This document shows positions 42 to 14,580 of a stretch of DNA of 14,580 bases, in pieces; position 1 is the first letter of the stretch; each line of letters starts with the position of its first letter. The translations under genes and the position numbers were made by a program. Origin of the DNA: Betaproteobacteria bacterium (GTDB taxonomy: Bacteria > Pseudomonadota > Gammaproteobacteria > Burkholderiales > Rhodocyclaceae); the NCBI GenBank assembly GCA_028868235.1, contig JAGWUW010000022.1, positions 1 to 14,580 on the forward strand. Direction: 5' to 3'. The notes beneath the pieces are model-generated. The model did not search any database and was not told the DNA's origin. It was given only the letters and a program-made list of their open reading frames with translations.

Positions 42-407
42 ATGGGAACAACAAATTGCCAGAAGAATCGGCGTGAAATTTCAGATAGAAGATGCAGAGA
101 CCTCGGACCGCCCCCAGGAACCGAGGATAGAAGAAAGTTTCGCGCCGAACTCCGAAATATCCAGATAGCCCCACTCTCCTTAGCCAAATGGGCTGAGTTA
201 GCATCGGACTACTACTATCATCATCCTCCTCCCGAAAGAATTGATCGTCGCATACGCGCCGACAGAAGAATTATTGATAGAGGTCCACCTGCCCAGGTAG
301 CCGAAAGAAGAGTGCATCCTGAGAGACGCTACATCCGCGTTGAGGAAGCATCTATTGCATCATGGGCTGATGCAATGTCGAATTACTATTACCACTTTCA
401 TTTCTAA
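42..407 (+). CDS. Arg-rich small protein with two tandem DRR/GPP repeats, function unknown
   Basis: I do not recognise a named family. The product is 121 residues from ATG 42, which has GGTGG about 5 nt upstream. TTG 30 and GTG 33 are alternative starts, and the frame stays open to the window edge, so the true start could lie further left. It holds two copies of one unit, residues about 10-61 and 69-120. Each copy reads [KR]R-x3-DRR-x4-GPP-x4-[DE]RR, then 17-18 residues to a Trp, then a YYYH run. The same unit occurs once in the small gene at 14230-14409. There is no signal peptide or membrane segment, so it is probably cytoplasmic and strongly basic. About a dozen Arg codons are AGA, unlike the CGN-dominated neighbours, which suggests a different origin or late acquisition. 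The internal repeat and the distant copy with the same spacing make a chance ORF very unlikely. Function is unknown. Confidence 0.75.
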   Translation: MGTTNCQKNRREISDRRCRDLGPPPGTEDRRKFRAELRNIQIAPLSLAKWAELASDYYYHHPPPERIDRRIRADRRIIDRGPPAQVAERRVHPERRYIRVEEASIASWADAMSNYYYHFHF

Positions 408-7207: not shown

Positions 7208-8833
7208 ATGCAAGAAGTCTCCCACTCCCTCATCGCCTTGGCGAAAACACTCGAATTGCGCTGGCAGAACTACCGCAGCAGCAACGAATTCGACCAGTTC
7301 GTTGAGTTCACACTGTCGCTGAATGGATTGACTGAGCGACTGAATCAGCAGAATCTGCCCGGTCTAGCCAGCGCCTGCCAGGAATTGGAAAACCGGGCCC
7401 TCGCTTTTTTCACCGACCACACGCTACGTCCGGTATCTGAAGAACAGACCGAAGCGATCAGCCAGCAGTTGAACACCATTCTGCAAGTACTACATCGTCA
7501 CGAAACGCCGGCTGTCATCACCAAGCGCCTGTCGGATGCGACCGATGCCGAACGCGACCCCTGGGTACGGCAGCGCAACGTACTGATCGTGTCCCGCCAG
7601 GGGCACCCGTGGAGCGCAGCGCTGGTCGAGCAACTATCGTTCTACGGCTTCCGACCACATGCTCTTGACTGGGAAGGGGATCCAGAACTGGATGAAGCAC
7701 CGCTGGCAGTCATCCTGGTTCCTGATCAGGAAAACAGCGGCTACCCACAGCATGCACTGGCCTCGCTGCAACGCCTCAAGCAGCGCTATGTCGCCAGCTA
7801 TGTCTATTGCCTGTCGGTACCGTCGGCACTGGAAGCAATTGTCAGTTTGCAACGGGCAGGTGCCAACGTCTGCATCCCGGCCGAGGTCAAGCTGAGTGAT
7901 ATTTTGTCGCGCATCCTCGACCTGGTGGAAAGCCGCGAGCAGGAAGCTCATCGAGTCCTCATCGTTGAGGACTCGAAAACCGCCGTCGCCCACATCCAGC
8001 GCGCCCTCGATCTTCACGGCATCGATAGCCGCGCCATCCACACCCCGCTATCGCTGCTTCAGGCTTGTGCAGAGTATCGGCCTCACGCCATCCTGATGGA
8101 CATGTACATGCCCTTCTGCACCGGCGTCGAGGTCACCCGCGCCTTGCGCCAGATTCCGGAAGACCACTCGCTGCCGGTTATTTACCTCTCGGGCGAGACC
8201 GACATCGCGCAACAAGTTGAAGCCCTACGCCTGGGGGGCGACCAGTTCCTGACCAAACCAGCCAATCCGATCATTCTGAGTGCCGTGGTCAAGACCAAGA
8301 TTGAGCGTTACCGCGACATGCTGCGCTCCGGCCGCCACGACAGCCTGACCGGACTACTCAACCACTCCGCATCGAAAGGTCAACTGGAACAAATGCTGCG
8401 CCGGGCACTACCGGCTGGCCAGTTGGCCGTGGCGATGATCGATATCGACCGTTTCAAATCGATCAATGACAACTACGGACACCCTGTCGGCGATCAGGTT
8501 ATCCGCAGCCTGGCCTGGCTGCTGCGCGGGCGCCTGCGCAATACTGATCTGATCGGACGCTACGGTGGCGAGGAATTCATCGTCGCGTTGAGCGGCGTTG
8601 AAATTGGCCAGGCCATGACCCTGCTCGACCGAATTCGCGAGGACTTCGCGCAACTGCCTCACGCCCATGGCCGTGGCGCGCTGCGCGCCAGCTTCAGTTG
8701 CGGCATAGCCGCCGTGCCTAGCCATGTCACCGGTAGTTCGCTGATCGAGGCGGCCGACGAAGCGCTATTGGAGGCCAAGCGGGAAGGACGCAACCGAATC
8801 GTTACCGCCAGTCGCAAGCGACTGATGCAGTAA
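7208..8833 (+). CDS. Response-regulator diguanylate cyclase (helical domain, degenerate REC, REC, GGDEF)
   Basis: This is a probable cyclic-di-GMP synthase of 541 residues. Residues 1-115 are helical and unassigned. Residues 122-242 resemble a receiver domain (RNVLIVSR to LSDILSRILDLVE) but lack the acidic pocket and phospho-acceptor, so this copy looks degenerate. Residues 248-365 are an intact receiver with Glu254-Asp255, Asp298 in LMDMYMP, Ser328 and Lys350. Residues 378-535 are a GGDEF domain with DSLTGLLN, the active-site GGEEF (453-457) and an inhibitory RxxD site (RNTD, 444-447) exactly five residues upstream. It should therefore be active and product-inhibited. There is no membrane segment. 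No histidine kinase lies next to it. The start has a poor Shine-Dalgarno but a good promoter lies upstream. It is divergent from prfA and convergent with hemA, with only 3 nt between stop codons. Confidence 0.92.
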   Translation: MQEVSHSLIALAKTLELRWQNYRSSNEFDQFVEFTLSLNGLTERLNQQNLPGLASACQELENRALAFFTDHTLRPVSEEQTEAISQQLNTILQVLHRHETPAVITKRLSDATDAERDPWVRQRNVLIVSRQGHPWSAALVEQLSFYGFRPHALDWEGDPELDEAPLAVILVPDQENSGYPQHALASLQRLKQRYVASYVYCLSVPSALEAIVSLQRAGANVCIPAEVKLSDILSRILDLVESREQEAHRVLIVEDSKTAVAHIQRALDLHGIDSRAIHTPLSLLQACAEYRPHAILMDMYMPFCTGVEVTRALRQIPEDHSLPVIYLSGETDIAQQVEALRLGGDQFLTKPANPIILSAVVKTKIERYRDMLRSGRHDSLTGLLNHSASKGQLEQMLRRALPAGQLAVAMIDIDRFKSINDNYGHPVGDQVIRSLAWLLRGRLRNTDLIGRYGGEEFIVALSGVEIGQAMTLLDRIREDFAQLPHAHGRGALRASFSCGIAAVPSHVTGSSLIEAADEALLEAKREGRNRIVTASRKRLMQ

Positions 8834-11916: not shown

Positions 11917-13206
11917 TCAGGCCAGCATATCCGCCCAGATGTTCTTGGCCCAGCCCAGAGCGACCTTAGCCTCCAACTCGTTGCGTGCAACCGAGACACC
12001 GCCGGCCCCCTTGACCGGTTGCACGCTCTTGGTAACGGCATCGTATTGGTGCACTGACGACACGTGAATGACGCTCTGAGCGTCAACGAAGCTGTAGCAG
12101 GTATTCATCACTACCGGTTCCGGGTTCGGGTCCAGACCGGAAAGCATGTTCAGGATCGCTGCTGCAGCCAGCTTGCCTTGCTGATTGGCCATGTGCCCGG
12201 ATTTTGGCATGGCGGGGGCTGGGAAAATGGCATCTCCCAGGACATGAATGCCCGGCGTATTGGTCGATTCCATCGATAGCCAATTGATGTCCACCCAGCG
12301 GGTGTTGATCAACTTGATGCCGGAAGTGCGCGCGATATCGCCAGCCCGGTGTGGCGGTATGACGTTGAGCACGTCCGCCTTGAACTTGTCGAATTCGAGG
12401 ATGGCAGTATTGCTGCCGGCCTCGACATCCTTGACCTCGCTATTGTTGCGGTATTCGATAATGCCTTTGTAGAGATCGCTCCATGCCTTGGTGAACAGAC
12501 CCTTCTTGGACGTCACCTCCTCATTGGCATCAAGAATGACAACCTTCGATTTAGGCTTGCTCTGCTTGAAATAATTAGCCACCAAGCAGGCACGCTCGTA
12601 AGGTCCGGGCGGGCAGCGGTAGGGCGCCTTGGGGATGGCAATGGCGTAGACACCGCCATTCTTCATGCTCTCCAATTGCTTGCGCAACGCTATGGTCTGC
12701 GGGCCAGCCTTCCAGGCATGCAAGACTTTGCTCTGGGCTTCGGCACTCTTTAGCCCGGGCATCTCATCCCACATGAAATCGACGCCTGGCGACAATACTA
12801 GGCGGTCGTAGCTCAACGCACTACCGCCTTTCAGGGCGATCGTTTTCTTGGTGGCATCGACAGCAACTACGTCGTCCTGGATCACGCGCACGCCCCACTT
12901 GCTGCGCAGGGCTTCATAGCTGATCGTGATATCTTCCATCGTCTTCTGACCGCCGATGACCAGATTGGAGATTGGGCAAGAAATAAAGGTCGGGTTGCGT
13001 TCGACCAGCGTCACCTGAACCCCCCCCTCGCTCCACATGCGCAGGTACTTGGCGACCGTGGCACCGCCGTAGCCGCCACCAACCACAACAACGTGGCCGC
13101 TAGCCTTAGCGCCGGCGGCACAGCCATAGATGGATGCCATCGCACCAGCTGCTGCACCGATTTTCAGAAAATCACGTCTTTTCATCAGCATCATGGCGGT
13201 TCCCAT
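11917..13206 (-). CDS. fccB: Flavocytochrome c sulfide dehydrogenase, flavoprotein subunit
   Basis: FccB (SoxF) oxidises sulfide in the periplasm with a covalently bound FAD and passes electrons to its cytochrome subunit. The product is 429 residues. A Tat signal with RRDFLKIGAAAG (10-21) exports it folded. The FAD-binding VVGGGYGG is at 41-48. Cys77 in FISCPISN matches the FAD-linking Cys of the family, and Cys198 (YRCPPGPYERAC) and Cys370 (MNTCYSFV) match its redox disulfide. The second FAD motif is HVLGDA (321-326). The C-terminal FCSD domain follows. The first ATG (13206) overlaps the fccA stop as TAATG; Met5, Met6 or Met8 could also serve as start, and Met8 would give the tightest Tat signal. 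Sulfide specificity is inferred from the three Cys and the partner. Confidence 0.93.
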   Translation of the reverse strand: MGTAMMLMKRRDFLKIGAAAGAMASIYGCAAGAKASGHVVVVGGGYGGATVAKYLRMWSEGGVQVTLVERNPTFISCPISNLVIGGQKTMEDITISYEALRSKWGVRVIQDDVVAVDATKKTIALKGGSALSYDRLVLSPGVDFMWDEMPGLKSAEAQSKVLHAWKAGPQTIALRKQLESMKNGGVYAIAIPKAPYRCPPGPYERACLVANYFKQSKPKSKVVILDANEEVTSKKGLFTKAWSDLYKGIIEYRNNSEVKDVEAGSNTAILEFDKFKADVLNVIPPHRAGDIARTSGIKLINTRWVDINWLSMESTNTPGIHVLGDAIFPAPAMPKSGHMANQQGKLAAAAILNMLSGLDPNPEPVVMNTCYSFVDAQSVIHVSSVHQYDAVTKSVQPVKGAGGVSVARNELEAKVALGWAKNIWADMLA

Positions 13207-13511
13207 TATTTTTGTGCGGCGAAATAAGTGGCGATCAAATCAAGTTGGGCATCGGTGTAGCCCTTACTGATCTGATGCATGATTGAAGCGGGCTTGTCGC
13301 CGCTCTTGTAGTCGGCCAACTTCTGCAGGATCTTGGCTTTTTCCATGCCGGCCAAGGTATCCATGCCTGAGCCCTTGACGGCCTGGCCATTGGTGCCATG
13401 GCAGTTGGCACAAGTGGCAGCCAGATTGCGGCCGAGATTGGGATCAGCGGCGTGTGCCGTAGCGGCAGTTGCCAGCAAACAGGCTGCAACCAGTGGCGAT
13501 AACAATTTCAT
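13206..13511 (-). CDS. fccA: Monoheme cytochrome c, probable cytochrome subunit of sulfide dehydrogenase
   Basis: This is a periplasmic class I cytochrome c of 101 residues. A Sec signal peptide (1-21, cleavage after AHA) precedes one heme site CANCH (Cys34, Cys37, His38). Met78 in SIMHQISKGY is the likely sixth ligand. With a mature size of about 80 residues it resembles the monoheme FccA of green sulfur bacteria rather than the diheme form of Allochromatium. AGGAG lies 8 nt before ATG 13511. It is directly followed by fccB with a TAATG junction, so the two are translationally coupled and probably form the electron-transfer pair. The upstream gap shared with the divergent ArsR gene must hold the promoter. 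Confidence 0.9.
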   Translation of the reverse strand: MKLLSPLVAACLLATAATAHAADPNLGRNLAATCANCHGTNGQAVKGSGMDTLAGMEKAKILQKLADYKSGDKPASIMHQISKGYTDAQLDLIATYFAAQK

Positions 13512-13691: not shown

Positions 13692-14021
13692 ATGAGCAAC
13701 ATGGACAGAACTTTGCAGGTCTTCGAGCAGGTGGCACACTACTTCGGATTACTGGCCGACCCAACGCGCTTACGCATTCTGTCCAGCCTATGCGCCGAGG
13801 AACGTCCGGTTCATGAAGTTGTGGAAAAAATTGGCCTGACACAAGCCAACATCTCCCGGCACCTGAACATCCTGTATCGAGCCGGTGTAGTCGAACGGCG
13901 GCGAGAAGGCAGTACGGTGTATTACCGGGTCATCGATCCCAATTTCGTCGACATCTGCCGGACGGTCAGCATCAGGGTAGCAAGCCGTGACCTGGGCCGC
14001 GAGTTGGGCATGGGCAAGTAA
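13692..14021 (+). CDS. ArsR/SmtB-family transcriptional repressor, possible sulfide or redox sensor
   Basis: This is a winged-helix repressor of 109 residues with LADPTRLRILSSL at the start of the domain, the recognition helix TQANISRHLNILYRAGVV (50-67) and the beta-wing RRREGSTVYYRV. It has two cysteines, Cys34 in SSLCAEERPV and Cys89 in VDICRTV. The classical metal motif ELCVCDL is absent at helix 3. Sulfide and persulfide sensors of this family (BigR, SqrR) use a Cys pair, but the spacing here (55) is shorter than I recall for them, so sulfide sensing is inference from the neighbouring fccAB genes. ATG 13692 is used; ATG 13701 is an alternative, and neither has a good ribosome binding site. 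It is divergent from fccAB across a 180-nt gap that carries palindromes. Confidence 0.88.
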   Translation: MSNMDRTLQVFEQVAHYFGLLADPTRLRILSSLCAEERPVHEVVEKIGLTQANISRHLNILYRAGVVERRREGSTVYYRVIDPNFVDICRTVSIRVASRDLGRELGMGK

Positions 14022-14061
14022 TTCGCACCAACGACCATACTCGGAAGGGTGGATCTTTATG

Positions 14062-14081
14062 GTTGATTTTATAAAATCAAC
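14062..14081. promoter_or_regulatory. Perfect 20-bp palindrome downstream of the ArsR gene
   Basis: GTTGATTTTA followed by TAAAATCAAC is an uninterrupted perfect palindrome, starting 41 nt after the ArsR stop. It has no T-run and no unpaired loop, so it fits a dimer-binding site better than a terminator. TTGAT and ATCAA half-sites are present but 8 nt apart, not the 4 nt of an FNR box. Confidence 0.5.
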
Positions 14082-14159
14082 GGTGGAGCAACTATCCGAG
14101 TTCAAGTGGCTCAAGCGGGACAAGGCAAAGATACATCCCCACAGCAAGCGGGGCCACAT

Positions 14160-14192
14160 AACAAAAATAAACCCCCGGTTGAGGTCCGGGGG
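14160..14192 (-). terminator. Intrinsic terminator of the right-hand Arg-rich small gene
   Basis: On the minus strand CCCCCGG (14192-14186) and CCGGGGG (14178-14172) pair around a 7-nt loop and are followed by a T-rich tract, TTTATTTTTGT (14171-14161). It lies about 38 nt after the stop codon at 14230. Confidence 0.85.
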
Positions 14193-14229
14193 CTATACGG
14201 AGCGCCGTTAGCTGGCGAGTTGCTGCCGA

Positions 14230-14409
14230 TCAATGCTGTTCGACGACATCCCGCGCTGGCACGTGCGCAAGCCATTCGGAAAAGGGAATTTCGCGTACTT
14301 CAGGAACTCGCCGCTCAACCGTTTTCCGGCGATCACGCCAGCCATTCGGCGGCCCGACCTCCTTTTCACGGCGATCCATCCCTGAGCGCTTGTCATTCTT
14401 GAAGGTCAT
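14230..14409 (-). CDS. Arg-rich small protein with one DRR/GPP unit, function unknown
   Basis: No named family is recognised. From ATG 14409, which has GGAG at 6 nt spacing, the product is 59 residues. ATG 14427 and GTG 14448 are upstream alternatives with weaker sites. It contains KR-x3-DRR-x4-GPP-x4-DRR, then 17 residues to Trp46 in PFSEWLAHV. This is the same unit, with the same spacing, as each of the two repeats in the protein at 42-407. Here the Arg codons are mainly CGC, CGT and CGG, as in the core genome, in contrast to the AGA-rich left copy. There is no signal peptide or membrane helix. It is a complete transcription unit: CRP-like site upstream, good ribosome binding site, terminator downstream. 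The charged [DE]RR clusters suggest binding to an anionic partner, but that is speculation. Confidence 0.82.
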   Translation of the reverse strand: MTFKNDKRSGMDRREKEVGPPNGWRDRRKTVERRVPEVREIPFSEWLAHVPARDVVEQH

Positions 14410-14473
14410 TCGAAACTCCGACTCCATTGTTTTTCCATACAGCTTCACCTTATCGAAAAGCCTGCTCGTCTTC

Positions 14474-14489
14474 AGTGAAAAAAATCACA
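14474..14489. promoter_or_regulatory. CRP/Vfr-like site upstream of the right-hand Arg-rich gene
   Basis: On the minus strand this reads TGTGA-T6-TCACT, matching 9 of the 10 conserved positions of the CRP consensus TGTGA-N6-TCACA. It lies 65-80 nt upstream of ATG 14409, a position suited to activation. No clear sigma-70 hexamers were picked out between it and the gene. Confidence 0.5.
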
Positions 14490-14493
14490 CGCG

Positions 14494-14522
14494 AAAAAAA
14501 TGGCCCGACTGTCTCGGGCCAT
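14494..14522 (-). terminator. Intrinsic terminator of a minus-strand gene beyond the right edge
   Basis: ATGGCCCGA (14500-14508) and TCGGGCCAT (14514-14522) form a perfect 9-bp stem around CTGTC. Read on the minus strand it is followed by seven T residues (14500-14494). It should end a minus-strand transcript entering from the right and so insulate the Arg-rich gene. The remaining 58 nt to the edge show no identifiable coding end. Confidence 0.85.
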
Positions 14523-14580
14523 TCGTGAATCAAATCTGATCGCAATAAATAAAGTCTGTCGGAACCATTCCTCAGGAAGC

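Follow-up and report, generated by a model that had tools for sequence, protein, structure and literature searches.

What do the small arginine-rich proteins encoded at both ends of this contig do, and does the motif that they share, DRR-x4-GPP-x4-[DE]RR, provide a binding surface? The window, i.e. the whole stretch of DNA that was analysed, is an entire contig of 14,580 bases (G000:C314) from a genome that is 70% complete. At its left edge, a two-unit gene (42–407, forward strand; ATG at 42, stop codon at 405–407) encodes 121 residues, and the translated frame confirms the two tandem units, 59 residues apart, that had been noticed in a preliminary description. Unit 1 (69–191, forward strand; RR-x3-DRR-x4-GPP-x4-DRR-x18-W) begins at residue 10 and unit 2 (246–365, forward strand; RR-x3-DRR-x4-GPP-x4-ERR-x17-W) at residue 69; they match the family profile A2 with E-values of 2.0e-17 and 4.2e-17, respectively, and each is followed by an aromatic YYYH tail, read as a motif in the translated frame (210–221, residue 57, and 384–395, residue 115). 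At the right edge, a single-unit gene (14230–14409, reverse strand; ATG at 14409–14407) encodes 59 residues behind a GGAG at 14419–14416 that we read as the ribosome-binding site; its unit (14272–14391, reverse strand; KR-x3-DRR-x4-GPP-x4-DRR-x17-W; A2, E = 2.8e-20) begins at residue 7. Directly past this gene lies a terminator-like hairpin with a T run (14170–14194, reverse strand; consensus match only), while consensus matching found no promoter-like site in 14020–14580.

Between the first [KR]R and the second [DE]RR the three units are spaced alike, and the match of the single unit extends beyond the point to which it had been followed, as its W also stands 17 residues past the second [DE]RR (18 in unit 1, 17 in unit 2). 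The core [DE]RR-x4-GPP-x4-[DE]RR occurs three times in the six frames of the window, which equals the number of units. Homologues bear out both start codons (42 and 14409): P0021 (51% identity) and P0022 (46%) share the two-unit layout, and 59-residue proteins of Dechloromonas and Azonexus correspond to the single-unit protein. All three copies being paralogues within one family, they are not the independent copies that had been proposed. At the left end, positions 1–78 equal the last 78 bases of another contig of the same genome (G000:C228:3574-3651; L013) save two mismatches; because of this overlap, C228, in which a pepN-like and an RNase H-like gene can be read, is probably the left neighbour of the window, with strain variation as a possible cause of the break in the assembly at the junction.

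The unit genes form a genuine protein family that is subject to purifying selection, in line with part of what the preliminary description had claimed. Searches with the single-unit and the two-unit frame returned 20 and 2 relatives, respectively, and a 32-row profile matched 256 proteins; the organisms named among the matches listed, taken from the best 120 of the 256, are Dechloromonas, Azonexus, Ferribacterium, ‘Rhodocyclales’, ‘Betaproteobacteria’ and, once, ‘Bacteroidota’ (a metagenome bin). For the group-1 genes, represented by the 26 of 37 regular-expression matches that have the modal length, pN/pS is 0.28 (mean pS 0.63, mean pN 0.18; 300 pairs, 25 distinct gene stretches), and variability is 0.383 at third codon positions versus 0.137 and 0.109 at the others. 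The core was found in 125 of 21,362 stop-to-stop frames (1.99 million residues), none of which scored below 20 bits with A2; these frames stem from loci fetched around family members and thus bound chance matches rather than representing a random genome sample.

No named family fits the units. Neither window protein matches a Pfam or NCBIfam model, hence neither a CheY-like receiver domain nor PilZ, and PHROGs yielded no significant match (three families of function-unknown type at E = 0.27, 0.4 and 8.7). Pfam applied to 32 A2 members gave nothing significant and no PilZ, two models being touched by one member each (E = 0.08 and 0.45); profile A4 found no solved structure at E ≤ 1, and among phages and plasmids the single-unit protein had no match at E ≤ 0.01. 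Two structures of short cysteine-rich peptides, reported for A2 in a search at E ≤ 10 (E = 1 and 1.6), were taken as chance. The earlier statement that the pattern belongs to no named family thus holds as far as Pfam, NCBIfam and PHROG models are concerned; it must be qualified in that the core equals that of a class of protein tails related to the Cle arginine-rich region, discussed below.

Within the genus, 34 of 40 genomes were matched by profile A1 at E ≤ 0.1, with 117 matches in total, some of them weak; copy number, which had been singled out for inspection, ranges from zero to eight matches per genome. The sister-subfamily profile A7 matched 33 of the 40 genomes at E ≤ 1e-4, in many cases through the same genes. 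Beyond the genus, A2 (E ≤ 1e-3) detected the unit in 16 of 121 genomes of the family, 8 of 200 of the order and 4 of 398 of the phylum, the own genome being counted each time; these counts are lower bounds, as scoring reached only some of the first-look candidates. In the phylum sample, the four consist of the own genome, a second member of its order and two others, including that of the receiver protein L077. The own genome holds four family genes with five units, two genes in the window and the others at C534:7655-7822 and C414:9330-9419, and a two-unit protein of the window type (L099) is found in genome G497.

Of 106 distinct frames that a profile matched at E ≤ 0.01, 75 contain the exact core and 71 GPPxG, and six have more than one matched stretch, some of these weak. 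In a 77-row alignment, R13, R27, R28, R33, R34, G19 and P21 are invariant; each unit carries three to four RR pairs, most of them preceded by an acidic residue, in rigid spacing. The C-terminal tails differ between subfamilies: PFSEWL, EWxxYFG followed by a VFDRVRD-like end, NIERRLFNL, FDDHIEIG, and YYYH-like ends in the two-unit proteins. The unit is modular, occurring singly, in tandem or behind ankyrin repeats, the latter in L053 and L180 (ankyrin repeats called by Pfam) and in L057, L160, L188, L189 and L190 (by eye); in two further cases (L181:2307-2954 and L191:2678-3097) it is fused behind a domain without a Pfam match (ALRILLEALTTISYL...). A reading frame at L086:1405-1800 (reverse strand) contains repeated DRR and GPPERR/GSPERR elements and may represent an intermediate form linking the unit with GP[DE]RR motifs. 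The selected fold that had been expected from the spacing found no support: AlphaFold2, given the 77-row alignment, predicts the single-unit protein with a mean pLDDT of 69.2 and a pTM of 0.26, with helices at residues 24–27 and 43–49 only and no strands. In this model, the protein is a peptide without a globular fold and with one short confident C-terminal helix (pLDDT 88 for residues 41–50, which include FSEWLAH).

The closest functional precedent is provided by the Cle proteins of Caulobacter. According to PMC5677366, these bind c-di-GMP via a 28-residue arginine-rich region (ARR) with tandem [YF]xGP[DE][RK]R motifs; when transplanted, the ARR suffices to confer binding on E. coli CheY and, in the case of most Cle proteins, on SUMO. 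For CleD, the same paper gives a Kd of 86–212 nM and states that binding is greatly weakened or lost with the ARR exchange R156A; of the 302 ARR proteins tallied there, 294 are alphaproteobacterial, and 91% are single-receiver CheY homologues and 5% lack known domains. The structure of a CleD peptide has been solved (PDB 6sft). The units resemble Cle, and CleD in particular, in being short peptides in which arginine pairs follow an acidic residue (DRR), in having a GP element and in the character of a graftable module; the second RR pair lies 12–14 residues from the first in the tails read for this comparison and 14 in the window units. Unlike the Cle proteins, they have no receiver domain and no [YF]xGP ahead of the first DRR, place GPP in mid-loop instead of directly ahead of the second [DE]RR, carry extra RR pairs on both sides and a C-terminal helix of their own, and occur in Rhodocyclales with up to eight matches per genome. 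PilZ, a c-di-GMP receptor domain, likewise has paired arginines, near its N-terminus; the units differ from it in having no Pfam PilZ match and no predicted strands.

The profile comparisons do not support the canonical ARR as a direct relative of the unit. The tandem [YF]xGP[DE][RK]R is absent from the window proteins, and of the 106 profile-matched frames only L044 (YTGPERR) and L077 have [YF]xGP ahead of the first DRR. Ten canonical ARR rows failed to match the unit profile, their score of 12.3 being equalled or exceeded in 7 of 200 column shuffles; 127 family proteins scored below their own shuffles with a canonical ARR HMM and, tail by tail, none of the ten canonical ARR tails stood clear of its own shuffles.

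A connection emerges at one remove, through receiver proteins of another bacterial class than that of the window. In genome G298, the match of the unit profile (E = 9.9e-4) proved to be the receiver protein L077 (PF00072), with the tail YCGPDRRVKALGPPVGMKGRR; a search with the whole protein found relatives, more canonical ones included, in 73 of 80 genomes of its family at E ≤ 1e-12. Of 31 tails read (the best 29 loci of this search plus L163 and L176; the proteins other than L077 are termed receivers because they match it over most of their own length), 29 contain the exact DRR-x4-GPP-x4-xRR after YxGPDRR, the Cle signature. These GPP-type tails (L257–L285, L163) have the same core as the units, often with GPPxG, and all three window units possess it. 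The tails differ from the units in their position C-terminal to a receiver-type domain, in keeping YxGPDRR and a following Asp (invariant three residues past the second RR in 19 tails, where the units have x3-ERR or similar) and in a FliM-like motif further on. This motif, SQDxIDxLL by a loose pattern, lies 36 residues past the start of YxGPDRR in 29 of the 31 tails; it may dock to or self-inhibit the receiver. In PMC5677366, FliM's CheY-binding motif reads LSQxEIDxLL.

In single profile–profile comparisons, 19 of the 29 distinct tails matched the unit profile A2 with E = 4e-8 (probability 95, 22 gapless columns) and A4 with E = 9e-7, neither score being reached by any of 150 column shuffles; with a mixed set of 14 tails the comparison yielded E = 4.9e-5 (0 of 200 shuffles). 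Individually, 28 of the 29 distinct tails outscored all 200 of their own shuffles (scores of 15.1 to 23.6), and 26 of these 28 lie above the best scores obtained from 1.99 million residues after reversal (15.6) or shuffling (16.8); the bridging tails form one related class, first met via the unit profile, and do not count as independent events. The same 19 tails align with the ten canonical ARR rows (E = 2.8e-10) over residues 1–19 only, ending just past the first DRR, so that the alignment misses the GPP half, the part common to the units. Because it covers the front half only, confidence in the c-di-GMP adaptor reading given below is slightly lowered. In the own genus, no receiver-like tail was seen among the GP-type-motif frames examined from 30 loci; the tail profile A6 matched 33 places in 25 of the 40 genomes at E ≤ 0.1, one of which is a family gene, weakly (G034:C1:583671, E = 0.012).

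Judging from this shared sequence, the units may be stand-alone c-di-GMP-binding adaptor peptides, the most probable reading in our view, at roughly 46%; that the motif serves as a binding surface, as had been suggested at the outset, is likely. In this picture the unit would lack a fold of its own; c-di-GMP, probably in the form of an intercalated dimer, would be held by its arginine pairs (DRR ... GPP ... [DE]RR-x3-ERR), and the conserved short C-terminal helix, specific to each subfamily (FSEWL, EWxxYFG, EISFxEWASHF and others), would dock on a partner. The small proteins would thereby act as c-di-GMP-responsive adaptors, the tandem protein holding two sites, and the helix would be the output, the counterpart of the receiver domain in Cle proteins. 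We infer c-di-GMP binding, the helix as output and one partner per subfamily; the subfamily-specific tails and the ankyrin fusions fit a graftable module.

Much of the anatomy would equally suit peptides that dock proteins without any small ligand, the Arg/Glu pairs binding one partner and the C-terminal helix a second, in the manner of a small scaffold. The missing globular fold with its one confident helix, the subfamily-specific tails and the fusion to ankyrin repeats, a protein-binding fold, all point this way, as does the background frequency of GGDEF genes nearby (see below); this scaffold is nevertheless unlikely, since it leaves the recurrence of the exact DRR-x4-GPP-x4-xRR in tails with the Cle signature without explanation. 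Arginine-rich peptides that bind RNA or DNA, acting as small post-transcriptional regulators, come to mind in view of the three to four RR pairs per unit and the small, self-standing genes. Most of these pairs, however, follow an acidic residue in rigid spacing, which is unlike nucleic-acid-binding arginine-rich motifs, and no convincing Pfam match to a nucleic-acid-binding domain was obtained (one member touches DBD_HTH, E = 0.45), which makes this role improbable.

The core evidence for adaptors would serve as well for sinks that merely buffer the free second messenger and have no partner. A sequestering peptide has a precedent: according to a review (PMC9062693), an MBP fusion of the CleD-derived peptide CSP2 inhibited biofilm formation in P. 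aeruginosa, whereas CSP4 binds but did not. A sink would have no need of a conserved tail, yet each subfamily conserves its own C-terminal motif; the diversity of the tails therefore argues for adaptors rather than sinks, and pure buffering appears the least probable role of all.

The genomic context bears on the adaptor reading in both directions. In its favour, all 40 genus genomes have GGDEF matches, 11–65 each; against it, the six genomes without an A1 match, one of which (G021) has the sister subfamily, still have 27–56. Family size and GGDEF number do not correlate (rho 0.12, p = 0.47), and around family genes GGDEF genes occur at no more than background frequency: 12 frames, 11 of them distinct, were counted over 0.99 Mb of non-redundant sequence, versus about 11.2 expected from the genus. 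The window itself contains, at 7208–8833 (forward strand), a gene for 541 residues with receiver-like parts and a GGDEF-type end (RYGGEEF), with close relatives in L119, L121 and L122; judged by sequence, its product is likely a diguanylate cyclase. An inspection of neighbours, as had been proposed, brought no common theme and no operon partner to light; the recurring ones, which we take to be mfd, lut, sulfate transport and soxB-like genes, are explained by ortholog position. In L049, L071, L072 and L041, two family genes stand in tandem, one of the EISFxEWASHF and the other mostly of the NIERRLFNL subfamily, and in the first three of these loci the pair is divergent from an mfd-like gene. 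Elsewhere in the window, genes for a flavocytochrome c sulfide dehydrogenase flavoprotein and a cytochrome c lie beside that for an ArsR-type regulator (11917–13511, reverse strand, and 13692–14021, forward strand; Pfam).

To our knowledge, the receptors that read c-di-GMP in this genus are poorly known, and in searches limited to open-licence PMC papers, stand-alone ARR peptides from Rhodocyclales did not come up. It may be, at a probability little below that of the adaptor reading, that the units are previously undescribed free-standing c-di-GMP receptors of about 60 residues with many paralogues in Rhodocyclales, in which an arginine-rich peptide sensor is combined with an exchangeable helix output and is also used in tandem or as a tag on ankyrin repeats, alongside a GPP-type Cle class with a FliM-like docking motif of its own. 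Should these peptides, which have no Pfam or NCBIfam model, prove to bind c-di-GMP, they would rank with the smallest natural receptors of this messenger; the arginine-rich module would then not be tied to receiver domains, and the family would constitute a directly testable set of adaptors.
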